DNA from: Elephas maximus indicus
Taxonomy: Eukaryota > Chordata > Mammalia > Proboscidea > Elephantidae
Direction of reading: 5' to 3'
Length of the DNA: 64,000 nt
NCBI RefSeq assembly: GCF_024166365.1
Contig: NC_064827.1
Span: 16,471,001 to 16,535,000, forward strand
Shown here: positions 15,490 through 50,260 of the stretch, piece after piece
Layout of the letters: the number at the start of each line of letters is the position of its first letter
Numbering within the stretch: position 1 is the stretch's first letter
Notes under the pieces: model-generated
The model's database searches: none
What the model was told of the DNA's origin: nothing
The model's input: only the letters and a program-made list of their open reading frames with translations
Position numbers and translations under genes: made by a program

Positions 15490-16306
15490 CTACAGGACTT
15501 GTTTATGCCGGGAAGGGCACTGCAGGATCCCAGGCCACAGGGGACTCGGTGGTGGCAGGCCAAGGGTGCCCCTAGCACCCCTACGGCAAGCAGCCGCCCC
15601 AGGCACCGTAGCTTGACGTCACTGCCCCGCAGATTGCCCATAGGCCCACCAGGAAGCCTACTGCATTGTGGGGCGCATGTGGAGACGCTCCCCGCTTCCG
15701 GGGAGTACACTGAGCACCTGTTCTTCCCGCCGGTTCAAACATCGCTCCCTTCTATGAAGAAAGATGCGCACTCACGGCGCCAGCTTAGGTGACGCAGGCG
15801 GCAATGGTATCAGACGGAGGAACCCGACGCAAAGCCTGACAGAGGCTGACATGACTCGCTCAGGGGAACAATTGCCCACCGCGCCTCCCGACGGAGCGGG
15901 CCACGTGACTGACTTCCGCCTCCAGTTGTCACGTGACTTCCGCAGGAGCCAGTACCAGCCTCTGGGGTGCTCGGCCTTTGGACGCGGCCGGACTCTCCGC
16001 CCGCCGGGGGCCAGCTTCCCTTGGCGCATGCGCAGCAGACACCTGCCTCTTGGTTAACTCCCCCGACGCCGCTTCGACCCGCGACCCCACTTCCACTCCC
16101 TCGGGGTCTGGGCGCGCGCTGGGCTTCCTGCGCTCCGGGGGAGGAGAAGGCCCGGGAACTGTCAGAGGAGGCGGGGGTCGGTGGGCCGAGGGCGTTTCTG
16201 CTCGCGTTTGCTGCGACTATAGCGACAGCTTCTCCCCGGGGATGGAGGGAGGGTGGTCCGCGCTCGGCGCTGTCGCGGAGAGCCAGAGGAAGAACAGGGG
16301 GCTCCT
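15490..16306 (+). promoter_or_regulatory. CpG island and promoter module A
   Basis: Strongly GC- and CpG-rich. It contains two E-boxes CACGTG at 15,902-15,907 and 15,930-15,935 (28 bp apart) and an NRF1-like palindrome GCGCATGCGC at 16,024-16,033. No TATA box is seen. Parts align by eye with block B: 'cttgacgtcactgccccgc…cccataggccc' here against 'gctgacgttctcgtgcc…gccataggccc' at 48,861-48,898, and the 'gagcacctgttctt' / 'gtgcacctgttctt' stretch. The paired E-boxes are the kind bound by USF or MiT/TFE factors; which factor acts here is not shown. The long GC frames on both strands are composition artefacts. Confidence 0.75.
16034..16306 (+). other. Candidate first exon of gene A
   Basis: Transcription likely begins downstream of the NRF1-like site. 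An ATG at 16,242 in strong context (G at -3, G at +4) opens MEGGWSALGAVAESQRKNRGLL and runs to a good splice donor, CCT|GTGAGT, at 16,306/16,307. The coding claim is weak because the frame is only about 22 codons and I do not recognise the peptide. The paralogous exon in block B has no ATG, so a non-coding 5' UTR exon is equally possible. Confidence 0.35.
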
Positions 16307-16556
16307 GTGAGTGACGTGCGATGTGGACCGGCGTCGTCGCCTTCCTTCTTACCCTTTTCGCCAGTTTTAATCTGATCGCTAAGAGAATGTTTTTGTTAAG
16401 TCTAGGAAGAGCATTTCACAGTGAAGTTGACCCATGTGAGAGCAAAATTCCTGTTTTAGCAAATACTGATAAGGCTGTTTGAGATGACTTCACATGTCAT
16501 GACAAGGTAATACAAAGAAATGCTTAAATAAACAGGTACCTGTTTGTCTTTTGCAG
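16307..16556. other. Intron-like DNA after candidate exon A
   Basis: CpG content falls off quickly. No repeat is seen before the SINE fragment, and no counterpart of this stretch is visible after block B. Confidence 0.35.
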
Positions 16557-16604
16557 GAGCCCTGTTGGCGCAGTGGTTAAAAGCTCAGCTGCTAACTACC
16601 AGCG
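16557..16604 (+). mobile_element. AfroSINE 5' fragment
   Basis: 'ggagccctgttggcgcagtgg' head and 'agctgctaactacca', then the match stops. Confidence 0.7.
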
Positions 16605-16905
16605 TTCCTTAAATGTTAAACCTAAGGTTAGGTTTGGGTTAAAAAAAAAAAAGATCACTATACCTCTTGCTCTTAGTTGCAGAAGTTTTGAGAGTGATTC
16701 CTTTAAAGAGTTAAGATTGCTGAACTATGAAGTAAAAGCAGGAGGTGCACTTATGACAACACCTGATAATGTGATCAAGTGCGTTGAATGCTGTATTGCA
16801 TGGTCCAAAATGTAATAACATTGTCTTGAACCGCAGATCCAAGGACAGCATATGCAGAGAGCTACCAACTTGATTAATAAGTAACTCTGATGAACAGAGA
16901 AAATA
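16605..16905. other. Unassigned DNA
   Basis: No gene or repeat recognised. The 80-codon frame at 16,573-16,815 begins in the SINE fragment and is not a gene. Confidence 0.35.
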
Positions 16906-17995
16906 CTGAAGTGGTCAGTCAGTGCCCACGGAAGCAGCAGTCAGGAAATCAAATGACATATTGCATTCGGCAAATCTGCTGCAAAAGATGTCTTTAAAGT
17001 GTTAGAAAGTAAGGTGTCACTTTGAGGACTATCTTAGGCACCTAGTGCTGCTGTAACAGAAATACCGCAAATGGATGGCTTTAACAAAGAGAAATTAATT
17101 TTCTCGCAGTCTAGTAGAGTCAGAAGTCCAAATTCAGGGCCTCAGCTCCAGGGGAAGGCTTTCTCTCTGTCAGCTGTGGAGGAAGGTCCCTTTCATCAAT
17201 TTTCCCGTGGAGTAGAAGCTTCTCCACGCAGCAACCCTGGGTCCAAAGGATGCGCTCTGCTCCTGGCACTGCTTTCTTGGTGGTATGAAGTCCGCAACTC
17301 TCTGCTCACTCCCTTTTCATCTCTTCTAAGATAAAAGTTGGTGCAGACCACACCCTAGGGAAACTCCCTTTACATTGGATCAGGAATGTGACCTGAGTGA
17401 GGGTGTTACAATCCCACCCTAATCCTCTTTAACATAAAATTACAGTCACGAGATAGAGGACAACTACACAATACTGAGAATCCTGGCCTAACTGAGTTGA
17501 CACATTTTTGGGGGACACAGTTCAATCCATAACAAGGACTAAGGTGCGCCTGACCCAAGCCTTGATATTTTCAGTTGCCTCGTATGCATGAGAATGCTGG
17601 ACATTGAATAAGGAAGACCAAAGAAGAATTGATGCCTTCGAATTATGGTGTTGGCAAAAAAAAAAAGGTTGAATATGTCATGAACTGCCAGAAGAACAAA
17701 CAAATCTATTTTGGAAGAAGTACAACCAGAATGTTCCTTAGTTAGAAGCGAGGATGGCGAGACGTCGTCTCGTGTACTTTGGACGCGTTATTAGCAGGGA
17801 CCAGCCCCTGGAGAAGGACATCGTGCTTGGTAAGGTAGAGGGTCAGTGAAAAAGACGACCTTTGGCGAGATGGATTGACTGGCTGCAACAGTGGGCTCGA
17901 ACATAGCAATGCTTGTGAGAATGGCGCAGGACCAGGTAGTGTTTCATTCTGTTGTACATAGGGTTGCTATGAATCAGAACTGACCAACAACAACA
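16906..17995 (+). mobile_element. RTE/BovB-class LINE 3' part, split by an LTR
   Basis: Left piece to 17,029 ('gaagcagcagtcaggaaat', 'gcaaatctgctgcaaaagat'). The right piece from 17,540 ('aaggtgcgcctgacccaagc') runs to the (AAC)n-like end 'caacaacaacc' near 17,995. The LTR at 17,030-17,534 separates them with a duplicated AGGAC. Confidence 0.88.
17030..17534 (-). mobile_element. Solo LTR, ERVL/MaLR type, antisense
   Basis: 505 bp, inserted in an RTE copy with a perfect 5-bp TSD AGGAC at 17,025-17,029 and 17,535-17,539. Ends 'tatcttaggcacc' (first TG mutated to TA) and 'caatccataaca'. The RTE must predate this LTR insertion. Confidence 0.88.
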
Positions 17996-18157
17996 ACCAA
18001 TTTTTGCACTGCTAGGATAAATCATGTAGTTGACCACTAAACTTCACATAGATAAGCCATTCATCTATTCGTTCATTCACTAAAAACTTACTGCGCCGTG
18101 CGTTAGACCGATTCATAACTGTTTTCAAACATGTCCAACTTAGGTAAAAGACAAACC

Positions 18158-18366
18158 AAACTTAAAAAACCCATTGTGATTGAGTCGATTCTGACTCACA
18201 GCAACCCTTTAGGGCAGAGTAGAGATGCCTCACAGGGTTTCCAAGGCTGTAACCTTTACAGAAGGAGATTGCCACATCTTTCCCCTGCAGAGCAGCTGGT
18301 GGATTTCAGCTGCCCACCTTTTAGTTAGTAGCCAAGTGCTTAACCACTGCACCACCAGGGCTCCTT
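18158..18366 (-). mobile_element. AfroSINE, antisense, long form
   Basis: 'gattgagtcgattctgactc' tail, 'agggtttccaaggctgtaac' middle, 'ccactgcaccaccagggctc' head end. Confidence 0.9.
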
Positions 18367-18619
18367 GTCATCATTATTACTTTATTGGAATTGTCTCATT
18401 TACCATTTTATTCAGATTAACTTCCTTTTCATAAATAATAGAGTGGACTGAATACGTTGACAAGAAGGAAAACTTTATTGAAAGAATTTTTAAAAACAAA
18501 AATTTGGAAACCGCTCAGCCTCTACAGTAAAATGGAACAATGACGGTCCTATCTTGTGGAGCTGTTAATGTAAAGCTATCCACAGAAGGCACTGAGAAGA
18601 GAGGTGCTTTAGAAGAGAG

Positions 18620-18720
18620 ACTTGGCAATCTACTTCTGAAACGTCAGCTGTTGAAAACCCTGTGGAGCACACTTCTGCTCTGACACGGGGGGCCACCATG
18701 AGTTAGCGTTAGTATGTTTA
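18620..18720 (+). mobile_element. AfroSINE 3' fragment
   Basis: 'cttggcaatctacttctgaa' and 'aaaccctgtggagcacac' with a degraded tail 'ccaccatgagttag'. Confidence 0.65.
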
Positions 18721-19064
18721 TTACTCATTGCTCTTAGTCTGATCACTCATGTCAGCCTGGCTCCTAGGTAGATTTCAGTGCCTGATAGTGTACACCTTAT
18801 TAGGAGTACACACCCAGTTGTGTGCTAAGGTAGGGCAAAAGTGTAAGTTTTGTGGGTGTGTGAAGTAAACTGTATTTTTGCCTTAAAATCATGAAAATAT
18901 TATGTTCCCTTTACACTCAATGTGCCCTTCAAGACCAAGAAAACTTCTGGGACTAGAGACCAGAGGCGTTCAACTGGTAAAGAAGCTGAAATTAGAGTTT
19001 GATAGCATTGCAATGGGCTCTTTATATCAATCAAAGTATAATATAACTTGAAATAGGAAACTTA
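18721..19064. other. Unassigned DNA before block C
   Basis: No gene or repeat recognised. It may still belong to the duplicated upstream region of block C, but I cannot align it confidently to block B. Confidence 0.35.
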
Positions 19065-20050
19065 GCAATTAAACTCTGCTCAAATCCATTGACTTAACAC
19101 AGGATTGGCTAATTTTTCTTAGTTGGGAACACTAGGCAAGAAAGCCCCACAGGGACCTAGCAGCTGAACACTTCAGGCAGTTAAGAAAATTCCTTTTATC
19201 TTTGCTGAACATTTGGCACACTCGACCATCTGTCTCTGGCAGAACAAAAGACCTAAATTGGACACCTTGAAGGGCTGACATTAAAGTGCAAAAACCCAAC
19301 AATGCAACAACCTGACTTTGATAACAGTGAATGGAAACAGGACGCACCTGCATTCCGTTTTTCTCAATTTCAGCCCAAACTGGTCTCGGTTCAGGTGTTC
19401 CTGAGCGATTTTCTGTTTAGTTTTCCCATCTGAAGGTTCACACCTGCGGGCTTGGGGCATGCTCTGAGCAGGTGCTGCCAGCACAGAGCACTTGAGTTCC
19501 CTGAGGCTTACAACATGGACGCTGCTTATGTGACCCTTGTCAGGGGTCCGCACAGGACACCTAAGCCCACCCAGGGCCTTCCCACTTCGCAAAGAAGACT
19601 GCAGAGGCTCCCGATGACAGGGCTGAGGGGACACGCCACACCAGGCTGTCTCTACGAGCCAAGCCAGGCTGGAGGCAGGCGACACCTCTAGCGGGTCCCT
19701 CTAACTTCACTGCTCCGGAATCAGCCTGGAAACCTGTCACCAAGTGGATTCCGGCCAGTACCACCCTAAACACACCCACGGATGTCCGTGATCAGCTACT
19801 CCTTCTGTCCCCGCTCTGTGAGGACCAGGTCAATCCCACTCCTAAAAAGCAGGAAGCTTCAAGGCAGTGGCTTTAGCTCAGGTCCTGCGCAGAGCGGCCA
19901 GAAGGGAGCACCTGATCCGGACCTTCCATCAGCTGACCCATGTGACTCATTAGAGCACCGCCTACTGGTGTACGCTTTCACCTGGAGGCTGGGTCACATG
20001 AGTCACCCAGGCCAGACAGGTCACGTGATGCCCTGAGCTGCAGCCCGTAG
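19065..20050 (+). promoter_or_regulatory. Promoter module C, CpG-decayed paralogue of A and B
   Basis: The left half aligns with 48,207-48,670: 'gcaatta', 'taatttttcttag', 'agggacctag…cttcaggcagttaa…catttggc', 'gcacctgcattcc', and 'cttgagttccctgaggct' against 'gttgagttccccgaggct'. The right half keeps a paired E-box, CACATG at 19,995-20,000 and CACGTG at 20,022-20,027, 27 bp apart. Many CpGs have become TpG or CpA and the NRF1-like site is not recognisable, as expected of a promoter that lost activity or became methylated in the germ line. The frames at 19,281-19,685 and 19,452-19,691 are incidental. Confidence 0.7.
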
Positions 20051-20614
20051 AGGCAGCGTCCAGGTTTTTCGTACTGCTTGTGTTGTATTCTAGGTGAAGT
20101 CCTTGCAGTGGCACCCATAGCCCTGGGTCACCTTTGTCCTCCTGCCTTCCTCCTCTGGGATCAGTACCCAGGTGCCCAAGTAACGGTGCTTCCCTTCGTC
20201 TAGTGCTGGTGGAGGGCTCAGGTTAAGGCAGCCAAGGCAGGCTGGAGCCATTGTGACAAGTTCGTTTTCTCTCACATCCGCTTTGGTATGCCCGCTGTCC
20301 GTCACATAGAGCGAGCTGCGGACACAGACTGCCCACTCTCTGTCATGTAGAGCGAGCTGCGGACACAGACAGCCCGCCAGGTTCCTCTGGGCTTTGGCTT
20401 TCCAGGCTAGCAGCTCTCTGGAGGACCGGAGTTGGCAGTCCTGCCAACCGCAGCGTCGGTGCCTTCAAATGTCCCCAGGTGCCAGACCCATCACCATCCC
20501 TCATCTCTCGGGCCCTCCTTCCCTCCCCGCAAGCCACCATCCCCAGAATACCTCCAGGCTTCCCCAGACTTTCTTATCTGCTTTTCCATTTTACCTCCTG
20601 AGGCCATTACTTTT
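20051..20614. other. GC-moderate DNA after block C
   Basis: No exon recognised. It holds a tandem duplication near 20,300-20,370. Confidence 0.4.
20307..20370 (+). repeat. Small tandem duplication
   Basis: A 23-bp core (tagagcgagctgcgg followed by acacagac) occurs at 20,307-20,329 and again at 20,348-20,370, 41 bp apart, with partly conserved flanks (ctgtccgtcaca / ctgtcatg). Confidence 0.85.
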
Positions 20615-21330
20615 AACAGTGTATACGATCAAAAACTACAGCCTTCAGTATGGATTGCACCTCAACATAAAACAAAAATCCTCAAAACTGGACCAATAAG
20701 CAACATCATGATAAATGGGGAAAAGATTGAAGTTGTCAAGGATTTTGTTTTACTTGGATCCACAGTCAACACCCATGGAAGCAGCAGTCAAGAAATCAAA
20801 GGACACATTGCATTGGACAAGTCTGCTGCAAAAAGCCTTTTTAAAGTGTTAAAAAGCAAAGTTGTCACTTTAAGAACTAAGGTGTACCTGACCCAAGCCA
20901 TGGTGTTTTCAATCACCTCATATGCATGCGAAAGCTGGGTAATGAATAAGGAAGACTGGAGAAGACTCTAGAAGCCTTTGCCTTATGGTGTTGGTGACGA
21001 ATGTCGTATATATCATGGACTGCCAGAAGAATGGACAAATCTGCCTTGGAAGAATTACAGCCAGAATGCTCCATAGAAACAACGATGGGGACACTTCATC
21101 ACACATACTTTGAACATATTATCGGGAGGAACCAGTCCTTGGAGAAGGACATCATGCTTGGTAGAGTGTCAGTGAAAAAGAGGAAGATCCTCAATGAAAT
21201 GGATTGACACAGTGGCTGCAACAATGGGCACAAGCATTACTATGATCATGAGGATGGCATAGGACCAGGCAGTGTTTCGTTTTGTTGTACATAGGGTTGC
21301 CATGAGTTGGAACATAATAACAACAACAGC
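20615..21330 (+). mobile_element. RTE/BovB-class LINE, 3' part
   Basis: The frame through 20,600-20,971 carries KLQPSVWIAPQHKTK, EKIEVVKDFVLLGSTVNTHGSSSQEIK and an ALDKSAAKSLFKVLKSKVVTL stretch, the RTE C-terminal region seen elsewhere here. The end 'cataataacaacaaca' is the (AAC)n tail. Stops follow at 20,970. The first 60 codons of the 179-codon frame are not from the element. Confidence 0.9.
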
Positions 21331-22214
21331 TCACTACCATCTGGTAGACCACCATCTGGTCATTTAGGACTCTTCCTCAGTTGTGCACGCCCGTGGGCCT
21401 GGATTCCTTTTGCCACCTCTCCTTTCTGAAAGGCGATCCCACAGGCTTAAGATAGTATGTGTTTCCCACCTGCCCTTCAGACAGACTTCCACCTTTTTTT
21501 TATATATCTTTAGGCATCCAGCTCAGATTATCCTTTCCTCATGGTGTTTGATTACCAACCCATCGTAGGGCCAGAGGAATCCTAAATTCCTTGAGAGGAG
21601 CTAATTCACCTCCTTTTCCAGGTGGAGGCTTGTTGGCATTCTTGGGTTGCTTTGTTAAAACAGATGGTTCAAAATCATGTATAAATTTTCTTTTAGTGTT
21701 TAGGTTTAGCAATTTTATCCAACAATATCTTTCTCTTTGAACTTCCCTAGCATCCTGTACTTTTGAACCAAACAATCCAGATCTGATCCTTATAGCACAA
21801 GACTACCTCAAAGCTTGTCCTGTTTGATCAGACCTGCTTGGAATTTGGCTCTGCTCCTATGGAGGAGAAGCAAGGCGTCTGGTTGACAGCTCTAGCTGAG
21901 CTTCCGGCCGGCAGTTTCTTTCTTCAACGCTCCAGAGAGTGGTGTCCTTTTCAAGATGCAGTTTGTGAGTGAGATTTGTGGAAACCAGATATTGGTGGTG
22001 TGCTGCAGTAGGGTGGGATGAATGGGAAGCAAGAGCTGGCAGAGAGGGAAGAGTGTCTTTGGGATCACTGTGAGGTGGGTGTACCTAACAGCAAGAGGGG
22101 TGACTGTGGAAGTGTTCCAAGAGTGGGTGGGCTTGTGGGGAGCAAAGATGACATGTTTTATCATGAAGCTGCAGTCAGCACAGGTGTTGGGCTGGGATAT
22201 ACCTGGAAGGAATA
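21331..22214. other. Unassigned DNA
   Basis: About 880 bp with no recognised gene or repeat. The 134-codon antisense frame at 21,892-22,296 runs into the tRNA-Gly SINE and shows no family signature. Confidence 0.4.
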
Positions 22215-22553
22215 AAGAGCAGATAGCCAGTTCTCGCCTTCCAAGCAGGAGACCAGGGTTCGATTTCCGGCCAGTGCACGTCGTACACGTACACAACCAT
22301 CACCTGTCTGTTAGTGGTGGCTTGTGTGTTGCTATGATGCTAAACAGGTTTCAGCGGCACTTCCAGACGAAGATGGACTAGGAAGAAAGGCCTGGTGATC
22401 TACTTCCAAAAATAAGCCATTGAAAACTCTGTGGATCACAATGGTCTGATCCCCAGTTGATAACGGGGATGGAGCAGGATGGGATAGCATTTCCATCTCT
22501 TGCTCACGGGGTCGCCAAGAGTTGGGGGCCTACTCAGTGGCAGCTAACAACAA
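22215..22553 (+). mobile_element. tRNA-Gly-headed SINE
   Basis: The head has 'cagttctcgccttccaagc' and T-arm/B-box 'agggttcgatttccggcc', matching a tRNA-Gly. The body 'gaagaaaggcctggtgatct' and tail 'gtcgccaagagttggg…agctaacaacaag' resemble the AfroSINE/RTE end. Confidence 0.85.
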
Positions 22554-22784
22554 GAAGCTAGGTCCAGAAACTAAACAGAGAGATATCTTGTGGCAGAAAG
22601 ATAAATACCCATCACTTATGCCAGTCGATTGCTGTAGAAACGCTTTTGCCCTATCCAGGTACTTGAAGCTCATGTAAGAGAGCTAACAAAACAATGCCTA
22701 AAGATGCTATTGTGAAACTAAGGGAGAATCGTTTTAAAAAAAATCACTGATTATTACTGTTCTTCAGTGTTTTCCATAGTCTAC

Positions 22785-22907
22785 TGGGCAAATCTTCTGC
22801 AAAAGACCTCTTTAACATGTTAAAAAGCAAACATGTCACTTTGAGGACTAAAGTGCACCTGCCCCAAGCCGCAGAATGACACCTCGGCACCTAACGGCAA
22901 CAGTGCG
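22785..22907 (+). mobile_element. RTE fragment with internal deletion
   Basis: 'gcaaatcttctgcaaaagac' to 'gcacctgccccaagccgcag', then a jump to the element's terminus 'cacctaacggcaacag'. Several hundred bases of the usual 3' region are missing. Confidence 0.75.
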
Positions 22908-22984
22908 CTTCAAAACATCAAGATTTGACGCAGCAAATTACTAGATGGTTATTATTATGAGCAAGTGAGAAACTCATTTTTCCC

Positions 22985-23300
22985 AAGTAGTTAGTGTCTC
23001 TGAGGCGATTTCAAAGGTAATTCATCTGCGTAATGGGCTTTAAAAGGATCACAACCATTCTTCAACTGTGGCTCATTATCTGAACTAAACAAATTATTTC
23101 ATATGGCAAAAGATACTGTTAATTTTAATTACAACTCAAAAGGGAATTCTACTTCGGGGACATAATACAGTCATCTGAGCTATAATGTAGTAAATTTTCT
23201 AATTGGCCCACTTCCATAGCCAAGACTGTGAAACAATTAGAATGTAATATCTCTGATGCATATGGTGTTTTACAGCTTTGAAAATGTTCCCACTGTTAGA
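22985..23300 (+). repeat. Diverged paralogue of 46,975-47,280
   Basis: Shared order of short matches: 'gtctctgag', 'atctgaactaaacaaattat' / 'atctaaataaattaatctat', 'actgttaatttta' / 'attgttaattta', 'attttctaattggcccactt' / 'attttctagttaactcattt', and 'ccaagactgt'. No gene is visible in either copy. The second copy lies 1.2 kb upstream of promoter B. Confidence 0.6.
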
Positions 23301-23349
23301 ACCATAACTCGGGGCAGTCAACAGGGCTGTTGTAGAACCCTTGTTTTTC

Positions 23350-23470
23350 AGGTGAAGGAACTGTGACTCAACTAGACTTTGTTGAGCAAATATAACTTAC
23401 CAGCATCACTCAGCTGGTGAGTAGTGGAGATGGGTCTGGAATACAGGCCTCCACACTTGCAGTCCAGTCC
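23350..23470 (-). mobile_element. MIR, antisense
   Basis: 'caggtgaaggaactgtgact' and 'ctggtgagtagtggagatg' in antisense-MIR order. Confidence 0.55.
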
Positions 23471-23583
23471 CTGTTACACTGAGAGTACAGAATACTGGTT
23501 AAGAGGGCCAACCTTGACCTTGTGGGTTTACTACTTATTGTCTCGGGGGGTCAGTTTCTTACCTGTAAAATGGGAATAATAAT

Positions 23584-23833
23584 GTTGTTAGGTGGTGTTG
23601 AGTCAGATCCGACTCATAGCAACCCTATGTACCCGAGAATGAAACACTGCCTGGTCTTGCGCCATACTTAAATCATTGTTATGCTTGAGCCCATTGTTGG
23701 AGCCACTGTGTCAATCAATCTCATTGAGGGTCTTCCTCTTTTCTGCTGACCCTGTACTTTACCAAGCATGATGTCCTTCCCCAGGGACTGATCCCTCCTG
23801 ACAACCCATCCAAAGTATGTAAGACGCAGCCTT
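23584..23833 (-). mobile_element. RTE 3' fragment with target-site duplication
   Basis: Antisense RTE terminus ('gttgttaggtggtgttgagt' to 'gtccaaagt'-like sequence) bounded by a 12-bp direct repeat 'gggaataataat' at 23,572-23,583 and 23,834-23,845. A clean insertion into MIR. Confidence 0.85.
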
Positions 23834-23860
23834 GGGAATAATAATAGCACCTACTTTACT

Positions 23861-24434
23861 GGGTGCTTCTATAACAAATACCACAAATGGGTGCCTTTAC
23901 CAAACAGAAATTTATTTTCTCACAGTTAAGGAGGCCAGAAGTCTGAATTCAGGGCACCAGCTCTGGCGGAATTTCCTTGTCTCTTTTTAGCTTCTGTTCC
24001 TCGCTTCCTTGGTGATCTTCAGGGGGCATCTATCTGCCCCGCTCTGTGTTTCCTTATCTCTGTGCCTAAGCTACTTTTTTTGAACCTCAAAGGTGATTGG
24101 TTTGAGGCATACCCTACACAGAAAATGTCTCATTAACATAACAAAAAATCCTTTTCCCAAATGGGATTACAGCCACATGTATTAAAAATAAAAAAAAAGC
24201 AAACCAAACCCCTTGCCTTGGAGTCAATTCCAACTCATAATGACCCTATAGGACAGAGTAGAACTGCCCCACAGAGTTTCCAAGGAGCACCTGGTGGATT
24301 CAAACTGCCGAACTTTTGGTTAACACCCATAGCACTTAACTACTTCACCACTGCCACTAGGGTTTCCGACATCCACAGGTATAGGGGTTAGGATTTACAA
24401 CGCATATTTGTGGAGGACACAGTTATCCATAATA
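23861..24434 (-). mobile_element. ERVL/MaLR-type LTR with nested SINE
   Basis: 'taacaaataccacaaatggg' near the left end, 'cagaaatttattttctcaca', ending 'ggacacagttatccataata'. An antisense AfroSINE occupies 24,190-24,366. Same LTR variant as 1-332 and 40,781-41,690. Confidence 0.78.
24190..24366 (-). mobile_element. AfroSINE, antisense
   Basis: 'ccttggagtcaattccaact' tail end, 'gtttccaaggagcacctgg' middle, degraded head 'ctgccactagggtttcc'. Confidence 0.87.
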
Positions 24435-24599
24435 CCTGGTAGTAAGTCCTTCACTGAGGATAAAAGGTGGTAATACCCACAGAGCACTTAGAACAGAGCT
24501 TATAAATAAGAAGCCGGGTACAAATGTTAGCAATTGTACCATACCACCTTAAACTCCTAATGAAATGGAAGCCTCATATTGTACACCTTATTAGTAATA

Positions 24600-24735
24600 T
24601 AGCATCCCTGCTGGTACAACCTATTAAAGTGTTCAGCTGGTAATGAAAGGTTGAAGGTTCGAGTCCACTCAGAGGCATTCAGAAGAAAGGCCTAGCAATC
24701 TACTTGCAAATAATTAGCCCTTAAAAGCCCTCTGG
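24600..24735 (+). mobile_element. AfroSINE, 3'-truncated and diverged
   Basis: 'gcatccctgctggtacaacc' head, B-box 'ggttcgagtccactc', middle 'gaaaggcctagcaatctac'. Confidence 0.7.
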
Positions 24736-25020
24736 GGATATTTTTTGTTTAAAAGATCATCTCAGGGCAGTAGTTACAGGGGTTCATCCAGCCTACATGG
24801 CTCCAGAAAGTTTGGAGTCTATGAGAATTTTAAATTCTGGTCTGCATTTTCTCCCTTTTGGTCAGGATTTTTCTATAGAATCTTTGATGAGAATGTTCAG
24901 TAATGGTAGTCAGGCACCATCCAGGTCTGCTGGTCTCGTGGCAATTAGCCACACATTTCATATTCTCCTCCTATTCCTGACTCTCCTTTCTCTGTTTTTA
25001 CAGGGGAATAAGAGACCAGT

Positions 25021-25188
25021 TGGAAACCCTGGTGGCATAGTTGTTAAGTGCTACAGCTGCTAACCAAAGGGTGGGCAGTTCAGATCTGCCAGGCGCTACT
25101 TAGAAACTCTGTGGGGCAGTTCTATTCTGTCCTATAAGGTCGCTATGAGTCAAAATCGACTCGACGGCACTGAGTTTTTTGGGGGGTT
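25021..25188 (+). mobile_element. AfroSINE, short form
   Basis: 'ggaaaccctggtggcatagt' head to 'gagtcaaaatcgactcgacg' tail and a T/G-rich end. Confidence 0.9.
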
Positions 25189-25509
25189 AGAGACCAATTG
25201 TGCATTGGATGGCTGTTTGCAAATTTTTATGACCTCAGGCACTGTGCAACAAAGTAGGAGGTAGAACAGAAGTACTAAACATGTTATTTGGCCCATTAAT
25301 TGGGATGTCCCATGAAATCATGACCCTAAACCTCCAAACCAAGGAACCAAATCCCGTGATGTTTTTGGTTGTACACAAGCAGCCTCAGCAGCTACTCTTT
25401 TTTTAATCATTGTTGTAAATATATCTATCACACAACTTTTGCCAGTGCAGTGTTTTACAGGAGTACAGCTTGTTGACAGCAATTACAAGAACAGGCTGTG
25501 CAACCCTGT
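25189..25509. other. Unassigned DNA
   Basis: Old repeat-like texture but not assigned to a family. No reading frame of note. Confidence 0.35.
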
Positions 25510-26569: not shown

Positions 26570-26599
26570 CTGATTTCCAGCACTGAGCTAACCCTAGAT

Positions 26600-37345: not shown

Positions 37346-37369
37346 TCACCTCTAGGGGGTGGAGAGTTG

Positions 37370-37441: not shown

Positions 37442-37454
37442 GTTCTTCCTCTTT

Positions 37455-38115: not shown

Positions 38116-38164
38116 CCCAGGACAACAGAAGTTTCTTGCTCACATAACACTTCAATGTAGGTAC

Positions 38165-38400: not shown

Positions 38401-38401
38401 A

Positions 38402-40378: not shown

Positions 40379-40580
40379 TAGGAGCCCTGGTGGTCCAATG
40401 GTTAAGCTGGCTGCTAACTGAAATGTTTGAATCCACCCAGAGGCTACATGGGAGAGAGACCTGGTGATCTGATTCTGTAAAAGGGATTATAGCCAAGAAA
40501 ATCCTATAGGGCAGTTCTACTCTGTCTCGTGGGGTCACTATGAGTCAGAATCAACTTGACAGCACCCAACAACAACAATC
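40379..40580 (+). mobile_element. AfroSINE, long form
   Basis: 'aggagccctggtggtccaat' head, B-box 'gtttgaatccacccag', tail 'ggtcactatgagtcagaatc' then '(aac)n'. Confidence 0.9.
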
Positions 40581-40802
40581 AATCAATTGCAAAGAAAGTT
40601 AAACTTAATTTGAAAGGAAAAAAAACCCAGAAATTCCTGAGAAGGTATCAGAATATCAGCAGAAGTGTCACAAGCTAAGAACTCCATTTGAAGAGAACAA
40701 CCAACAATATAGGAATGAATGTCTCTGATGAAGGGACTGGATTTAAGATAAAACCAGGAAACAATAAGAAAGTAACCCATCTTAGTTATCTAGTGCTGCT
40801 CC

Positions 40803-41066
40803 AAAAGACTCTGACCCCCATGGAGCACTGTGAGTCAGAGTCAACTCAATGCCAGCTTGTGTGGATTTTTGAGGAGATGTACTATAGTTGAAAGGAGCCC
40901 TGGTAGTGCAACAGTTAAGTGTTCGGCTGCTAGCCACCTAGTGGCTCCATGAGAGAAAGACCATGCAGTCTACTCCCCTAAAGATGACAGCCTAGGAGAC
41001 CCTATATATCTATTCTGTCACACGGGGTTGCTATGAGTTGGAATCGACTCTGCAGCACCCAAAAAC
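40803..41066 (+). mobile_element. AfroSINE copy plus SINE tail fragment
   Basis: 40,803-40,870 is a SINE-tail-like piece ('gtgagtcagagtcaactcaa'). A full copy follows at 40,895-41,066 ('ggagccctggtagtgcaaca' to 'gttgctatgagttggaatcg', then 'cccaaaaacaaca'). Confidence 0.82.
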
Positions 41067-41433
41067 AACAGCTGTAACAGAAATACTACAAGTGTATGGC
41101 TTTAACAAGCAGATATTTATTTTCTCACAGTTTAGGAGGCTAGAAGTCTGAATTCAGGGTGCTGGGCCTAGGGGAAGGAAGGCTTTCTCTTTCTGCTGGT
41201 TCTGGAGGAAGGTCCTAGGCTCTTTGAGCTTCTGCTCCTTGGTGATCTTCATGTGGCTTGGTGTCTCTGTCCCCCCATCTCTGCTAGCTCACTTGCTTGT
41301 TTAATCTTTTTTTATATCTCAAAAGTGATTGAAAATACACCTTCCACGAATCCTGCCTCATTCACATAACAAAGACAATCCATTCCCAAATGGGATTATA
41401 ACCACAGGCATGTTAAAAAAAAAAAAAAAAAAA

Positions 41434-41638
41434 AAAAACCCACTGCTGTCCAGGCAATTCCTACTCATGGCTACCCTATAGGACAGAGTAGAACTGCCCC
41501 ATAGGGTTTCCAAGGCTGTAAATCCTTACAGAAGCATACTGCCTGGTGCATCTTTATCCCACGAAGCGGCTGGTGGGTTTGAACTGCTGACCTTTTGGTT
41601 AGCAGCTGAGCGCTTTGACCACCGCACCACCAGAGTTT
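41434..41638 (-). mobile_element. AfroSINE, antisense, long form
   Basis: Follows an A24 run. Tail 'caattcctactcatggctac', 'catagggtttccaaggctgt', head end 'gaccaccgcaccaccagagt'. Confidence 0.92.
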
Positions 41639-41837
41639 AGGAATTACAGCACATATTTCTGGGGGATACAGTTCAATTCATAACATGACCCAAAGCTAGT
41701 GGAAAAAGTACTTATGGCATAAACTAAGAATAAAATGTAAAGAAACCTGTAGAAATGTTATAATTTTGTAGAAAAATGAGTAAGCATTCAATGGATCTTT
41801 TATTCTTATTTTTTAATTCTGCTTTAGATGAAAGTTA

Positions 41838-41984
41838 AGTGCAGTGGTTAAGTGTTTGGCTGCTAACCAAAAGGCTGGTAGTTTGAATCCACCAGCTGCT
41901 CCTTGGAAACCCTGGGGGGTAGTTCTACTCTGTTCTGTAGGGTTGCTGTGAGTTGGAATTGATGTGATGACAACAGGCTTGGTT
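41838..41984 (+). mobile_element. AfroSINE in the older L1
   Basis: 'gtgcagtggttaagtgtttg' (head truncated), 'gtttgaatccaccagctgct', 'gttgctgtgagttggaattg'. Confidence 0.88.
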
Positions 41985-42220
41985 TTAGGTGAAAGCTTAC
42001 AGAGCAAATTAGTTTCTCATTAAACAATTAACACACAGATTGCTTTTCGGCTTTGGTTGTCAATGCTGTGATGTGTCAATACTCTCCCCTCTCAATCCTG
42101 GGTTTCCCATTTTGATTCATCTAGTTTTCCTGTCCCTTCCTGCCTTCTCTGTGCTTTTGGGCTGGTGTGCCCATTAGTCTCATATACGTGGTCGAACTAC
42201 TTGTGTTATTGCTTGCCCTA

Positions 42221-42378
42221 TTAAAAAAAAAAAAAAAAAACAGTTTTCGTCAAGTCGATTCTGACTCATAGCGACCCTATAGGACAGAGTAGAACTGCCC
42301 CATAGAGTTTCCAAGAAGTGCCTGGTGGATTCGAACTGCTGACCTTTTGGATAGCAGCCATAGCACTTAACCACAATC
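42221..42378 (-). mobile_element. AfroSINE in the older L1, antisense
   Basis: Follows an A18 run. 'gtcaagtcgattctgactca' tail, 'ggattcgaactgctgacctt' B-box, the head ends near 'catagcacttaacc'. Confidence 0.92.
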
Positions 42379-42580
42379 GTTATGTAGTATTCCGTTGTTT
42401 GCATGTACCATAGTTTGTTTATCCGTCCATCTGTTGATAGGCGCTTAAGTTATTTCCATCTTTTTGCTATTGTGAATGATGCTGCAATGAGCATAGATGT
42501 GCACATGTCTATTAGTGTGACAGCTCTTATTTCTCTAGGGTATATTCTTTCTTTTGATTGCTGGATCGTATGATATTTCT

Positions 42581-44836
42581 TTTTTTAATTTTAATAAATT
42601 TTTTATTATTGTTCTTTAGATGAAGGTTTACCGAACAAACTAGCTTCTCACTAAACAATTAGTACACATATTGTTTTATGACATTGGTTACCAACCCCAT
42701 GACATGTCCACACTTTTCCCTTCTTGCCCTTGAGTTTCCCATTACCAGCTTTTCTGTCTCCTCCTGCCTTCTTGTCCTTGCCCCTGGGCTGCTGTGCCCC
42801 ATTAGCCTCATTTTGTTTTATGGGCCAGTCTGATCTTTGGCTGAAGGGTGAACCTCAGGAGTGACTTCATTACTGAGCCTAAAAGAGTGTCCAGGGGCCA
42901 TTCTTTTGGTGTTTCTCCAGTCTCTGTCAGGCCAGTAAGTCTGGTCTTCTTTTGTGAGTTAAAATTTTGGTCTATATTTTTCTCCAGCTCTGTCTGGACC
43001 CTCTACTGTGATCCCTGTCACAGCAGTTGGTGGTGGTAGCCGGGTATCATCTAGTTGTTCTGGACTCAGTCTGGTGGAGGCTGTGGTAGTTGTCCATTAG
43101 TCCTTTGGACTAATCTTTTCCTTGTCTCTTTTGTTTTCTTCATTTTCCCTTGCTCCAGACAGAGTGAGACCAGTGGAGTATCTTACATGGCCACTGGCCT
43201 TTTAAGATCCCAGGTGCTACTCACCAAAGTAGAATGTAGAACATTTTGTTTATAAACTATGTCATGCCAATTGAGCTAGATGTTCCCTGAGACCATGGTC
43301 TCCATGGCCCTTTGCCCAGTAATTTGGTCCCTCAGAGAGTTTGGATGTGTCTGTGGAGCTTCCATGACCTTGCCTTGGCTGGCTTCCCCAGTAGTTGTGC
43401 TGGCTTCCCCAGTAGTGTGTACTCTCTTACCATTCACTAACCAGTAAAACTATTGTCTCTTTAGTGTTTTTCCATCCCCATATTCCTCCCGTCCCTTGCA
43501 AAGATTGTTTCTTTTTGTGTGTAAACCTTTCGTGAGTTTTTATAGTAGTGGTCTCATACAATATTTGTCCTTTTGTGATTGACTTATTTCACTCAGGATA
43601 ATGCCCTCCAAATTCATCCGTGTTGTGAGATGTTTTGCGGATTCATTATTGTTCTTTATCATTGCGTAGTACTCCATTGTGTTTATGGGCATCTTGGTTG
43701 TTTCCATCATTTTGCTATTGTGAACAATGCTGCAGTGAACATGGGTGTGCATTTTTGTATCCGTGTGATGGCTCTTATTTCTCTAGGATATATTCCAAGG
43801 AGTGGGATTGCTGGATCATATGGTATTTCTGTAACCTGACGCTATGAATGCCGGTAAATTTCCATTAGTCCTTAAACTAGCCCAAGTCAGATTTGTAGCA
43901 CCCCACATGCACAGAAGGGCCAGCTGTGTCTGCTAATTGACTTCAACAGCAGATGCAGCAACAGGTGGAATGAATTAGAAGGAAAAGCATCGCTTGGACC
44001 CTATTCTGAAGTCCGACGAGAACCACATCACCTCCTGTTTCCTGGACACCTTCTAGAATTTTCCCTCCCCGGTATGCCTGTGCAGGCACCATTTTGCTGC
44101 CCAAATCACATATAAGCCCTGCTTCCCCATAGCTTGGGCTGCCGGATCTGAGGAACTTCCTCCCGGCTCCTTGGTCTACGCATTGCTATAAGGTTAGACT
44201 TTTACAAAGACCTGTGTCCAGATAATTGGCAAGTCTGAATGCCCCAGACAGGGACCCACCTTCTAGGGTTTGGTAACATTTCTATTTCTAGCTTTCTTAG
44301 GAAGCGCCATATCATTTTCCAAAATGGTTGTGCCGTTTTGCATTCCCACCAGCAGTGCGTAAGAGTTCCAGTGTTCCCAGAGCATCTCCAACATTTGTTA
44401 TTTTCTGCTTTTTTTAAATTTGTGCCAGTCGTGCTGGGGTGACATGGTATCTCATTGTGGTTTTGATTTGCATTTCTCTAATGGCTAGTGACCGTGATTT
44501 CCTCATGTGTCTGTTAGCTACTTGAATGTCTTCTTTGGTGAAGTGTCTGTTCATTTCCTTTGCTCATTTTTTAATTGGATTATTTGTCTTTTTGTTATAG
44601 AGGTGTTGGATTTTCTCATAGATTTTAGAGATCAGACCTTTGCCATATTTGTCATAGCCAAAAGAAATTTCCTATTCTGTAGGTTCTCTTTTTCACTCTT
44701 TTGGTGAAGTCTTTTGATGAGCTTAAGTGTTTAATTTTTAGAAGATCCCAGTTATCTAGCTTACCTTCTAGAGTTTGTGTGTTGTCAGTTATGGTTTGTA
44801 TCCTGTTAATACCATGTATTATGGCCTCTAGCATTG
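42581..44836 (-). mobile_element. Younger L1, 5'-truncated, antisense, inserted in an older L1
   Basis: 3' UTR at 42,600-43,500. The ORF2 C-terminus is encoded antisense at about 43,540-43,752 (…PINTMEYYAMIKNNNES, then …MNLEGIILSEISQSQKDKYC, the usual mammalian L1 end). More ORF2 follows at 44,273-44,836. TSD candidates are 'tggatcgtatgatatttct' at 42,562-42,580 and 'tggatcatatggtgtttct' at 44,837-44,855 (16/19). An LTR-like element at 43,836-44,272 interrupts it. Frames are broken; not active. Confidence 0.88.
43836..44272 (+). mobile_element. LTR-like insertion in the younger L1
   Basis: A 437-bp segment foreign to L1, bounded by a perfect 5-bp repeat GTAAC (43,831-43,835 and 44,273-44,277). 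It contains a TATA-like 'cacatataagccctg' about 145 bp before its end. Ends are not clean TG…CA (ctgacgct … ggtttg). A solo LTR of an ERV family I do not recognise is the best reading. Orientation follows the TATA box. Confidence 0.6.
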
Positions 44837-45300
44837 TGGATCATATGGTGTTTCTATTTTTAGCTTTGTATCCTCATCAGCAGTGCATAAGAGTTCCAAT
44901 CTCCCCAAAGCCTCTCCAGCATTTCCTTTTATTTTTCTTTTTTTATTAGTACCAGTAATGTTGGGGTGAGATGGTATCACACTGTAGTTTTGATCTGCAT
45001 CTCTTTTTTTTAATGGCTAGTGGGAGCCCTGGTGGCATAGTGGTTAAAAACTTTGCTGCTAACCAAAATGTCAGCAGTTTAAATCCACTAGCCACTCCTT
45101 GGAAACCCTATGGGGCAGTTCTACTCTATTCTATAGGGTTGCTATGAGTTGGAACTGACTCCATGGCACCTAACAACGACAACAATGACTAGTGATATCA
45201 AGCATTTCCTCATGAGTCTAATGGTGCTTGAATGTCTTCTTTGGTGAAGTGTCTGTTCATATCCTTTGCCCATTTTTTAATTGGATTTGTCAATAAGCCT
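44837..45300 (-). mobile_element. Older L1, right part, antisense, with SINE
   Basis: 'gtgcataagagttccaatct', 'atgttggggtgagatggtat', then a + SINE at 45,023-45,186, then 'aatgtcttctttggtgaagt'. The same ORF2 stretch exists in the younger copy at 44,280-44,580, showing that two L1s are interleaved. Confidence 0.87.
45023..45186 (+). mobile_element. AfroSINE, short form
   Basis: 'gggagccctggtggcatagt' to 'gttgctatgagttggaactg' and '(aac)n'. Flanks 'aatggctagtg' / 'aatgactagtg' look like an 11-bp TSD with one mismatch. Confidence 0.93.
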
Positions 45301-45451
45301 ATTAGAGATACAGATACCTCTTAATGAAGCCACACTTCTCAAAGAGAAAGCTTAGCATGGGCTGTCATGCTAAGGAAGAAGTTGGAATCAGCAAAACACC
45401 AAGCTCAGGAAAAATTGAAATTACATGCAAAGCCCAAACCAAACCCATTGC

Positions 45452-45612
45452 TGTCAAGTCCCTGGGTGGTGAAAACGATGGTGCCCTGTAAGAATGTCCT
45501 AGAGATTTTCCATAAAGACTACAGCTAAGAAAACCCTGTGGAGCACTTCTGTTCTGTAATGCATGGAGTTATTATGAGTTGAAATTGACTCAGTGGCAAC
45601 AGATTTGGTTTT
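45452..45612 (+). mobile_element. AfroSINE, diverged
   Basis: 'gtccctgggtggtgaaaacg' head, B-box region deleted, tail 'ttattatgagttgaaattga' and 'cagatttggtttttgg'. Confidence 0.75.
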
Positions 45613-46974
45613 TGGTATACTGATGGGAGGAACAGCAAAGTCATATTGCAAAGGATCATTGGAAGAATCTGGTCATATTTTGCAATTCACAAGAGGGAAT
45701 GGATATTTCAAGGGCCCAAGGTATATAAGCATTTGTTCAAGAGGAGAGAAATCATTTACGACTTTAGCTGAGCAATGTCCATTAAGCATAATTAGAAGAA
45801 CACTGAAGATGGAACAGGGTACTTGTTCACTGTAATCAATTCAGAGCCCTTAGAAAATGTATTATAAAGCTTCAAATAAAAAATTGGACTCATTGATTAG
45901 ATAGAATGTCTCACTGGGAGAATTTGATCAGTAAAGATCAGAAGCAGTCAGGTGCAAAAGAAGGGAAATATTAAAACCAGTGACTTCAGTAAATGGAGGT
46001 AAACTAAAGAGTACGAAAATATCTTATATGGCAACATTTTGTTCTGGAGAAGAAAGCCTATGGCAATTAGATCCTTGTTTGTGGTTCTGAAAGAGCTATT
46101 GCTAGAGAGATGAAGTAAGTCTCTTCCTGAGACAGAAGTTCACAGAGCAACAAGTAAACAACAAGTTGATAATGCTCTGAAAACCAGGGGTTGTTAAAAG
46201 TAACTCTAAGAAGACATTTTGTGGTCTCTTTCCAACTAATACCTCAATTTCATTTCCAAGATTCCAAGTCCTTTATTTCTTACTGTAATCAGAGGCTTTA
46301 TAAAAACAGCAATAACATATTTAATGTCTCCCTCAATGAAGAGATCTTTCATTCAGTGCCTGAGGGTGAAGAAGCGCTGTACCCTTCAGTGATGAAAGAT
46401 TTTTAGCTTACACAGGAGGCTTGACCACTTCAAGGTCTCTCTCTACACCCTTGGCCATCATAGTGTCATTGGCCATTTGGGTTGTTTGGTGGACAAGTCT
46501 GAAAAGCTTTGGTAATAATAGAGAATTAATGAAGTGTTTCAGTTGGGTGGCACCACCATCCAATTTGCACGTTAGGAGAATCATTTTGGCTGCAGTGCAT
46601 AAGATGAGTCGGAGACAGTGGGTGGAGAATGCATGGAGGTCATTAGGAGATCATTATTATAATCCAGGTGGGAGATAAATTAACCTGAGGCAAACAACAT
46701 CGAATACAAAGAATAAGTATCAAGCATTAAATTTTAGTATGTATTCAGTATAATATTCACTTGTGACCCTTTAAAACAGTAGTTAAACATCTAGTTATTA
46801 TTTTATACTGCATAAATAACGCACATGTGATAAGGATAAACACATTAATGGTTATTACTATAACTCGATTCTTTATATTTGTAAAAGTCCAATGAACTTA
46901 AATTTCTTCAAAATTAGATTATTAGTAGTGTTAGAAATTTGCTACATTATATGCATTATTTGAAATTTACAAAT
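45613..46974. other. Unassigned AT-rich DNA
   Basis: About 1.36 kb with no recognised gene or repeat. Frames of 71-85 codons (46,191-46,678) show no signature. Confidence 0.4.
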
Positions 46975-47280
46975 ATTGTCTCTGAGATGGCAGTTCACAT
47001 TACATAATAGGCTTCAGGAGGAATCTAAGTATCTCATTATATAGTCTTTACCTTATTGCAATTGTATTTTTAAATTGGATCTATTGGATCTAAATAAATT
47101 AATCTATTATGTGGATAAAACATTGTTAATTTATATTGTGATTAACAATATGGAGGTATTTCTGTACATTAGGGATCCTTTGTGCCATGACTGATCTAGT
47201 TGATTTTCTAGTTAACTCATTTCAATATCCAAGACTGTAATTCACTGATTCATTGCTTGTGAAGTATTTTAATATTTTCT
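46975..47280 (+). repeat. Diverged paralogue of 22,985-23,300
   Basis: Same order of short matches as given for the first copy. It lies upstream of block B, so it may be part of the duplicated gene-5' unit or simply an old unrecognised repeat. Confidence 0.6.
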
Positions 47281-47575
47281 ATTATCTTCTTTGATGTTCA
47301 AATGGCTCAAGGAAGTTGGCAGGGCTGATATATTCAGCCTTATCAGGTTGAAAAAGCTGATACTTAGATTTGTTGTGTCCAACAAATGGTATTTTGCTAC
47401 AACATGTATCTGTAAATGGTGCAGGGACTGGAATTTAGGTTTCCAGACTTCATTCTGGGGTATGAGGTTCCCAGTCTAGTATATACTATGGCTTCCTAAG
47501 GACCCTAGCTTTTAGTGGCTCATTGACTGTGGCTGTATGAATATCTCCGTTTAAGATTTCACATCTTAATAAACC
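47281..47575. other. Unassigned DNA
   Basis: No gene or repeat recognised. Confidence 0.35.
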
Positions 47576-47783
47576 AAAAAAACCCAAACCCGCTGCTGTC
47601 AAGTCCATTCCAACTTTTAGCGACCTTATGGGACAGAGTAGAACTGCCCCAAAGGGTTCCCAAGGCTGTAAGTCTTTACAGAAGCAGACTACCGCCTTTC
47701 TCCCAGAGAGAACCTGGTGGGTTCAACTGCCAGCCTTTTGGTTAGCTGCCCAGGGCTTAACCACTGCGTCACCAAGGCTCCTC
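47576..47783 (-). mobile_element. AfroSINE, antisense, long form
   Basis: 'cgctgctgtcaagtccattc' tail, 'aagggttcccaaggctgtaa', 'ccactgcgtcaccaaggctc' head end. Confidence 0.92.
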
Positions 47784-48199
47784 GGAACTAATAATAAAAA
47801 AAAATTTTTTTTTTTTTACCTATTAATTGAATTGTTATAAGGATTAATCTATGTGAAACTCTTAAAACAGTGTCTAGTTCACAATAAACCCTACATAAAT
47901 GTTAAGTTATATTTTCGTTTTAGCAATCCAATTGCCTTGTAAGGAGGGTTGGAATCCTCATAGTATATACATCTGGAAAATTTTCAATTGAGTGTACGAG
48001 TTAAGCAAGTTTGGGAGCCTAAACTTTGTTTATAATTTACCAAAAAAAAAAAGTGGCGGCCCAATAATCCCATTTGTTTTAGCTTAATTAACCATATTCT
48101 ATCTGTCCTCACAGTGTTCTCCAACAGAGGAAAGATTTCAAGGGCATGGTAAAAGGACTTGCTTAGGTATTAAAACAACCTGAAACTGGTGTATTGTAA

Positions 48200-49300
48200 C
48201 AGAAAACTCAGCAATTATTAGCCCATGTTTACTCACTAGCATAAAGATCCACCTAATCTTTCTTAGCTGAGAAGACGTTAGAGGAAATGCTATGAGGGAC
48301 CCAGCTGGGAACCCTTCAGGAAGTTAAAAAAAAATTTTCTGCTCTGCTAAATATTTGGCGCAGTACAAAGGCTTAAGGACTGTGTGGTTCCTTCTGACAC
48401 TCTGGAAGGCGGAGTTAAAGGGCAGAAGCAGCAAGTTGCTGCAAACCAACGTATCTATGTTCTCAGGGGCCCAGAGGCACCTGCACTTCCAGTTACTCCC
48501 AATCAGGCCAACTCCTGCCATCTCTAGTTCCTAAGAGACTCGCAGTCTGGGATTTCCATTGGGGCCACCCTTGGGTCTGCCTATCTCAGGCGCACACTTG
48601 AGCGTGACCAAGTGTTCCGCGTGGGTGCATCAAACGCGGGGCAGTTGAGTTCCCCGAGGCTGGCAACACGGCCTTTAGCTCCAGAGTTACTAGTTAAAGA
48701 GTTGGCACGTGAACAACCTCGGGATCTCCCACTGTGGTGGGTAGGAGACCCGGGTGCCACAGGGCAAAGAGAAAACCGGCACAGGGCGCTGGACAGCAGC
48801 AGCCGGGACCGCCTCCTCAGGCTCCGCTGGGCATACTGAAGCCCCACCCATGGCAACGCCATGCTGACGTTCTCGTGCCAGAAGCCGCCATAGGCCCGCG
48901 TCGGGGCCCAGGACTACGTGTGGCGCGTGGACTCCGTCAGGTCCAGCCCCGTGGGAGCCTGGTGAACAATTCCGGGCAGGGTTCTGTGCACCTGTTCTTT
49001 CGTCCTCCAGCTCAAGTGTCTTTTCCTCTGAGAAGAAGGGGCATGCTCGTCTCCAGAGAGCAAGGAGATGCGCTCCAGCAAGCCTGTTCCAAGCACAGCA
49101 CGGAAGACTGAGCCCAAAACGAGAAGGTGCCGGGCACCTTTAAGCTGCTGGAAGTCACGTGACCCGTTAAACGCCGGGCCCCGCGGTCACGTGACGGCGC
49201 GCGTGCCCCTACGACCGGAGAGCCCGCCTGCGCCGTGCGCGCGCCCACCCCCTGGTCGGGCGGGTGCCGAGCGGCGGAGTGAGCGGCGCTGGGGCCCTCT
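48200..49300 (+). promoter_or_regulatory. Promoter module B with upstream block
   Basis: The upstream part (48,207-48,670) is paralogous to 19,065-19,525. From about 48,580 the sequence is CpG-rich. Two E-boxes CACGTG at 49,156-49,161 and 49,188-49,193 (32 bp apart) both sit in GTCACGTGAC, the full palindrome preferred by USF and MiT/TFE factors. 'gccataggcccg' at 48,888 pairs with 'cccataggccca' in A. An NRF1-like GCGCGTGCGC follows at 49,301-49,310. No TATA box. Likely active, given intact CpGs. Confidence 0.78.
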
Positions 49301-50260
49301 GCGCGTGCGCAGCGAACAGCTGTCACCCAGTGCGGAACAAGTCTCCCAAATTTCCCAAATCTCCTGGGGCCAGAGGCCACCGTCTTCCTTCTTGTCCTCC
49401 TCCACTGGACCGCGCCCGCGTCCCTGCCCACGCGCCAGGTAACTGCTTTTCCCGGTGGGGGGGCAGAGTGTTGGGGGAGGGGCGGGTGGTGGTCCTGGCG
49501 TGGGCCCCCTCGGTGCGGCTCACAGGGTGGGGCGTCCGGGTCACTCCGTCCGCACCGGCCGCGATGTCATGCTGGGCCGAGAGTGCGGCCGTGGCACGGG
49601 AGGCGGAGTCGGTGACAGCCGCGCTGGCCCTCCAGGGGTTCGGTCCCTGCGCCGGGTGCTCTCGGGGGCCGGGGTCGGAGTAGCGTTCCTTGGGGCAGAG
49701 GCGCATGCGGGTGGCCGGGGCATGCCGACTGCTTCCTTTCCCGTCCCTACCCGGACTGCAGCGCACTCCAGAGAGGCTGGGCCTGGTGCGCGGTCGCTCG
49801 GGGCCTCCCCGCCAGGGACTGTCACGACCCAAGAGGTGAGGCCGGGGTACTTCCCCGGACCACCCCGCCGCACGCAGCCATCTCCGTCCTCCGGCTTAGT
49901 CCTCGTGGTTTTTCTCGGCTCCCGCACGGGCCGTTTCTTCCTGCAGTGCCTGGAGCCATGATGCGGTGTAGACATTGGGTGTTTAATAAATGCAAGTGGG
50001 GTCGGGGCGCGTGGGCGGGGAATGTGGAGGAGGGAGCCAGGCAGGCTGGGGCTCCGAGCTGGAGCTAGGGGTTTACTTCGGGGCCCAGCCAGTGAAACCT
50101 GCAGGACTCGGATTCGAATGCTTTTCGCGTGGACTCGGTGTCAGTTCCCCGGTGCGCTGTGTGCGTCTGCACACGGTTGGCTTTGGTTGTGGGCATTGCC
50201 CGGGGGTATTTAGTCACGTTCCTACTCTCGGAGAAGAGGGCGCAAACTTTTTTAGCACTT
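48580..50260. promoter_or_regulatory. CpG island B
   Basis: Roughly 1.7 kb of dense CpG and high GC, the largest such block here, extending about 800 bp past the probable first exon. Several overlapping frames of 120-170 codons on both strands are composition artefacts: they overlap each other in opposite strands and cross the splice donor. Confidence 0.85.
49301..49439 (+). other. Probable non-coding first exon of gene B
   Basis: Begins near the NRF1-like site and ends at a strong donor, CCAG|GTAACT, at 49,439/49,440. No ATG lies between the site and the donor, so a 5' UTR exon is expected with the coding start further right. I cannot find a matching acceptor or a coding exon within the window. 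The transcription start is inferred, not seen. Confidence 0.5.

Follow-up and report, generated by a model that had tools for sequence, protein, structure and literature searches.

The GLDC-KDM4C interval

The DNA analysed here, referred to throughout as the window, is a stretch of 64,000 nucleotides from Elephas maximus indicus (C13:16471001-16535000; contig NC_064827.1 of assembly GCF_024166365.1) located between exon 1 of GLDC, on the left and on the minus strand, and the first coding exon of KDM4C, on the right and on the plus strand. The histone demethylase KDM4C, also known as JMJD2C and GASC1, undergoes amplification in certain cancers. The interval harbours three related blocks, designated A, C and B in their order along the plus strand, which are probably ancient copies of one promoter segment of this gene.

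The addition of 200 kb of flanking sequence resulted in a region of 264 kb, in which exons were located with the human GLDC and KDM4C proteins as queries. GLDC lies on the minus strand, where its exons extend as far as exon 1 (C13:16462307-16462059), whose identity was established independently by a Protein Data Bank match to glycine decarboxylase (6i33, E 3e-18). KDM4C exons are found on the plus strand from C13:16557109 onward: the first coding exon, situated approximately 22 kb beyond the window end, matches KDM4C in the same database (2xml, E 2e-23), and more exons were located downstream of it. All three blocks share one orientation and lie upstream of KDM4C on the KDM4C strand. B is positioned 37 kb upstream of the first coding exon and A another 33 kb further out, that is ∼70 kb from the coding exon and ∼24 kb from the GLDC CpG island. 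Within the 264 kb, 500-base intervals that pass the CpG-island criterion occur at GLDC, at A, at B and at C13:16536751-16537501, the last lying outside the window, 1.75 kb from its end, in the stretch that separates B from the first coding exon of KDM4C.

Three blocks with paired E-boxes

A first-pass annotation, made from the sequence of the window alone, had described the blocks as promoter modules bearing paired E-boxes. They are listed below in window positions; single motifs were located by motif search, except E-box 1 of C, which was read from the sequence. Where no strand is given, none was assigned.

15504-16306, plus strand: block A, putative upstream promoter copy of KDM4C with candidate exon 1; match to a profile of B and C at 15504-15773, CpG island at 15.5-16.5 kb, donor-like CCT/GTGAGT after 16306
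15638-15647, plus strand: CCATAGGCCC of A, common to B
15902-15907: E-box 1 of A, CACGTG
15930-15935: E-box 2 of A, CACGTG within GTCACGTGAC
16024-16033: NRF1-like site GCGCATGCGC of A
16242-16306, plus strand: start of a candidate 41-codon upstream open reading frame (ORF) of the A exon, from in silico joining with presumed splicing
19048-20057, plus strand: block C, decayed relative of B without CpG island or NRF1-like site, from alignment and motifs
19995-20000: degenerate E-box 1 of C, CACATG
20022-20027: E-box 2 of C, CACGTG
48194-49438, plus strand: block B, putative proximal promoter copy of KDM4C; alignment with C over 48194-49227, rich in CpG up to ∼50.3 kb
48888-48897, plus strand: CCATAGGCCC of B, common to A
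49156-49161: E-box 1 of B, within GTCACGTGAC
49188-49193: E-box 2 of B, within GTCACGTGAC
49301-49310: NRF1-like site GCGCGTGCGC of B
49311-49438, plus strand: KDM4C exon 1 candidate of B, noncoding, with donor-like CCAG/GTAACT and no ATG; predicted start site and splicing

A search of the plus strand placed the motifs and the E-box pairs where the annotation had put them, with the qualification that the pair of C consists of one true CACGTG (20022) and one variant, CACATG (19995). The boxes of a pair are spaced by 28 bp in A, 32 bp in B and 27 bp in C, and B contains an extra CACGTG at 48706 that the annotation does not mention. The GTCACGTGAC sequence is present at three of the four paired E-boxes of A and B. 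On the plus strand of the window GCGC(A/G)TGCGC occurs only twice, at 16024, 94 bp after the second box of A, and at 49301, 113 bp after the second box of B; CCATAGGCCC likewise occurs only twice, at 15638 and 48888. The loss of CpGs in C and their retention in A and B, also part of the earlier description, are borne out by observed/expected ratios of ∼0.37-0.38 in C versus 0.77 in A and 0.72 in B, the value for the whole window being 0.30. Outside the three blocks, TCACGTGA occurs a single time in the window, at 58896, and the profile of B and C gives no match there.

Homology of the blocks

B and C are homologous beyond their motifs, in the same order and on the same strand. The upstream similarity noted earlier extends over ∼1 kb: a local alignment of 19048-20057 with 48194-49227 runs through the E-box pair with a score of 349, whereas 200 dinucleotide shuffles do not exceed 187, and in each of three scoring schemes none of 500 shuffles reaches the observed score. 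B and C also align at 60.5% over 504 columns (E 1e-15). The duplication that separated B and C looks old, because mismatches amount to 30% in the best stretch and to 47% over the full MAFFT alignment, with a Jukes-Cantor distance of 0.73.

The relationship of A to the other two blocks emerges from a profile built from B and C alone. Searched against the 264 kb up to E 10, it matches B, C and one more place, 15504-15773 in block A, on the same strand (E 4.9e-4). Against the A island alone the match spans 15534-15773 (E 0.0024), and none of 300 dinucleotide shuffles of this island gives any match; the reversed region, the GLDC island and the third island, at C13:16536751-16537501, gave no match either. 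Shorter stretches of the two blocks, A1 and B1, were also compared, with the bias in favour of similarity that comes from having been picked after the matches were seen: 0, 0 and 1 of 500 shuffles reach the local score in three schemes and 0 of 500 the global score (12.5 versus a mean of -27), and A1 scores 21 against B1 versus 12-15 against six controls. Of the 48 8-mers that A has in common with B, 14 sit in two adjacent diagonal bins of 30. The blockwise similarity proposed at the outset is real but graded: strong between B and C, extended to A beyond the motifs, in the same order and on the same strand, by the profile with its shuffled controls, dependent on the test in pairwise comparisons of A with B, and mostly failing between A and C.

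Decay of block C

The sequence of C carries the signature of CpG decay. Only 2 of the 46 CpGs of B aligned to C still read CG, and 22 of the 46 read CA or TG; by comparison, of 75 aligned GpC dinucleotides 22 remain unchanged and 18 have undergone the corresponding transitions. The alignment with B ends just past the second E-box, so C is devoid of the NRF1-like site and of the exon region. C looks like a methylation-decayed, dead relic of a promoter, in keeping with the earlier suggestion that it is silenced or dead, and A and B look alive.

A probable duplicated promoter of KDM4C

A and B each comprise a CpG island, an E-box pair and an NRF1-like site, followed by a donor-like site (after 16306 and 49438, respectively). 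Because both keep these elements, they are probably alternative promoters of KDM4C. The first coding exon of the gene has a splice acceptor 17 bases before the start codon. The candidate exon of B contains no ATG. The exon of A, joined in silico to the coding exon, contains two: one at 16028, which opens a frame of 9 codons and sits in the likely start-site region of A, and one at 16242, which opens the 41-codon ORF. The latter would run past the KDM4C start in another frame if the A exon were spliced straight to exon 2. An in-frame stop in the A exon precedes the main KDM4C start, and therefore the protein would be unchanged.

In the proposed scenario, an old duplication upstream of KDM4C would have generated three tandem, same-strand promoter copies, with B serving as the main promoter and A as an alternative one. 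Transcription from A and from B would start near the NRF1-like site of each, and the resulting first exons would be spliced to the shared exon in which the KDM4C start codon lies. The paired E-boxes may bind basic helix-loop-helix-leucine zipper (bHLH-zip) factors, either USF or MiT/TFE proteins, possibly MYC/MAX, or else HIF by way of the ACGTG core. C, without a core promoter and most of its CpGs, would be a relic. We place at roughly 0.7 the probability that A, C and B are ancient tandem duplicates of one promoter segment of one gene, KDM4C, with B most likely the main promoter and A an alternative; the arrangement suggests that KDM4C gained an alternative start by copying its own promoter. 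The annotation of human KDM4C has two start sites at a distance of ∼37 kb, similar to the 33 kb that separate A from B. A more far-reaching proposal is tentative, with the odds somewhat against it: the copying may predate the placental radiation, the two-start structure of the gene in mammals, including humans, may stem from promoter duplication, and the A transcript may be weakly translated through an upstream ORF overlapping the KDM4C start, the B leader having no ORF.

The first-pass annotation had read the near-constant spacing of the boxes as a sign of a bound pair of bHLH-zip dimers. This argument does not hold, because copies of one sequence inherit their spacing by descent; moreover, 27, 28 and 32 bp correspond to ∼2.6, 2.7 and 3.0 helical turns and do not share one helical phase. 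The GTCACGTGAC sequence suits USF and MiT/TFE proteins, and the ACGTG core suits HIF too. USF or MiT/TFE is a possible factor at the boxes, judging from the motif.

If the alternative promoters of KDM4C are copies of one ancestor, the locus offers a natural experiment in duplicated promoters keeping, splitting or losing function, with a dead-looking copy near two live-looking ones. Work on the KDM4C promoter describes an NFE2 site at +260 bp and a reporter spanning -2220 to +522 (PMC10079541), and another paper mentions Kdm4c once in passing (PMC10012579). If the duplication is real, reporter studies of 'the' KDM4C promoter may cover one of two related start regions.

One gene and not a gene family

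The blocks had been attributed to duplicated 5' ends of one gene family. This part of the interpretation is not sustained, as the three blocks precede one and the same gene, KDM4C. A search of the 3.4-Gb genome with the first coding exon of KDM4C, in which 11 candidates were scored, gave KDM4-type sequence at seven other places, two on C3 and five on C9. The five on C9 occur within 80 kb on the minus strand (C9:25819847-25899489), where four lie within long open frames and the fifth has an in-frame TAG, and perhaps represent an expanded KDM4D-like cluster. The genome-wide search for the E-box pair allowed 18-28 bases from one CACGTGA to the next (exact pairs, 25-35 bp apart) and yielded 151 matches on the forward and 125 on the reverse strand, many of which belong to tandem arrays and some of which enter the count once per strand; the reversed control pattern gave more, 340 and 161. 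Among the pairs listed, which include those of C3 and C9 and run into C14, the nearest to any other KDM4-type exon is ∼0.93 Mb away, and none is within 0.9 Mb, the promoters of those loci not having been located. By this test, the E-box module does not appear to be a KDM4 family trait.

Weighing the alternatives

Several observations weigh against a duplicated KDM4C promoter. Composition bias contributes 11.8 bits beside a score of 13.5 for the profile on A; as much of the raw score is compositional, the shuffle controls matter. A permissive alignment of A with B scores 192 versus a shuffle mean of 162 and a maximum of 199, which is not significant. This alignment is uninformative because GC-rich shuffles align well, and the profile with shuffled controls was therefore used instead. 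In three other schemes 0, 6 and 0 of 500 shuffles reach the A-B score, and in direct comparison of A with C the counts are 155, 183 and 4 of 500, not significant in two of three schemes. B1 scores 15-23 against the six controls, including 23 with its own reverse and 20 with the reverse-complemented GLDC island. Homology between A and B was not found to include an exon 1. The third CpG island, which is unrelated to the blocks, could be a main KDM4C start, or possibly a third start site of the gene, and A could serve a separate noncoding RNA. Set beside shuffled sequence, the comparison by which the first-pass annotation would have its proposal judged, B-C beats all shuffles and the profile on A is unmatched in 300, but the permissive A-B alignment does not stand out.

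One alternative is that A is not homologous to B and C and is a CpG-island promoter that independently acquired similar E-box and NRF1-like sites; the failure of the permissive A-B alignment to exceed shuffles, the mostly negative A-C test and the finding that E-box pairs as such are not special (151 and 125 matches versus 340 and 161 in the reversed control) are all in its favour. However, the profile match lies upstream of the E-boxes and has no counterpart in 300 shuffles, the anchors between A and B are collinear and two E-box pairs occur within 33 kb on one strand. Independent origin appears distinctly improbable. Somewhat less improbable, though still unlikely, is a division of roles in which B is the KDM4C promoter and A initiates a noncoding transcript of its own in the GLDC-KDM4C interval, as a duplicated copy that has left the gene. 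The location of A, with ∼24 kb separating it from the GLDC island and 70 kb from the coding exon of KDM4C, fits this, as does the burden that the upstream ATG in the A exon would place on KDM4C translation. Yet A lies on the KDM4C strand with a donor-like site, and the two-start annotation of the human gene fits KDM4C. Furthermore, a Pfam scan of 359 ORFs revealed no convincing coding exon of another gene; its 21 single-member matches (best E 0.004-0.1) were taken as chance. The scan took 359 of the 512 ORFs counted (at least 40 amino acids, mostly non-repetitive), omitting those starting in a pol-like stretch at 26.5-31 kb and at 43-44.9 kb.

That the blocks are copies of an old interspersed repeat bearing CACGTG boxes is very improbable. 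The sequence common to B and C does reach well upstream of the promoter core, but the sole match of the profile in 264 kb other than B and C is A, and each block used as query on the 3.4-Gb genome found only itself. The sensitivity of this genome search to old copies is low, as the B query missed C and the C query missed B, and very old copies could escape it. The annotation had named a known interspersed repeat as the finding that would undo its proposal, and no sign of one was seen within that sensitivity.

Comparison with known systems

CLEAR and USF-type sites have the same box sequence, GTCACGTGAC; KDM4C is a candidate target of these factors, judging from the motif. Chelicerata Dscam and the clustered protocadherins are alike in having tandem copies of a 5' unit and differ in that their copies are coding, whereas at KDM4C regulatory sequence would have been copied. 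Both are described as tandem 5' cassettes feeding one gene body (PMC4835542). Rbfox1 is a single gene transcribed from alternative promoters, which contain E-boxes and have separate first exons (PMC7214753). Like the starts predicted for KDM4C, these provide several start sites for the same protein, with E-boxes in the alternative promoters; unlike them, the KDM4C promoters would themselves be duplicates of one sequence, accompanied by a third, dead-looking copy.

The BGW promoter motif of the BEX/TCEAL/ARMCX/GASP genes (PMC1274310, PMC7586669) is likewise an E-box-bearing promoter element in several copies within one region, and CACGTG is reported in the Tceal7 promoter (PMC8945367, Table 1). 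It was first suspected here because BEX/TCEAL/ARMCX promoters share an E-box element. It is X-linked and tied to other genes, in contrast to the blocks in the GLDC-KDM4C interval, and was ruled out since the flanks are GLDC and KDM4C, not the BEX/TCEAL/ARMCX/GLA cluster; TCEAL and BEX pieces gave no convincing match.

Other features of the window

A 41-bp unit is repeated in 2.1 copies at 20289-20375, directly downstream of block C, and a 44-bp tandem repeat occupies 59680-60342 with 15 copies and 97% matches. Between 26500 and 31000, ORFs resemble old retroviral pol remnants, as judged by eye. An Rfam tRNA match on the minus strand at 53280-53351 (35.7 bits) is probably part of a tRNA-derived short interspersed nuclear element, because the surrounding stretch recurs many times in the window.

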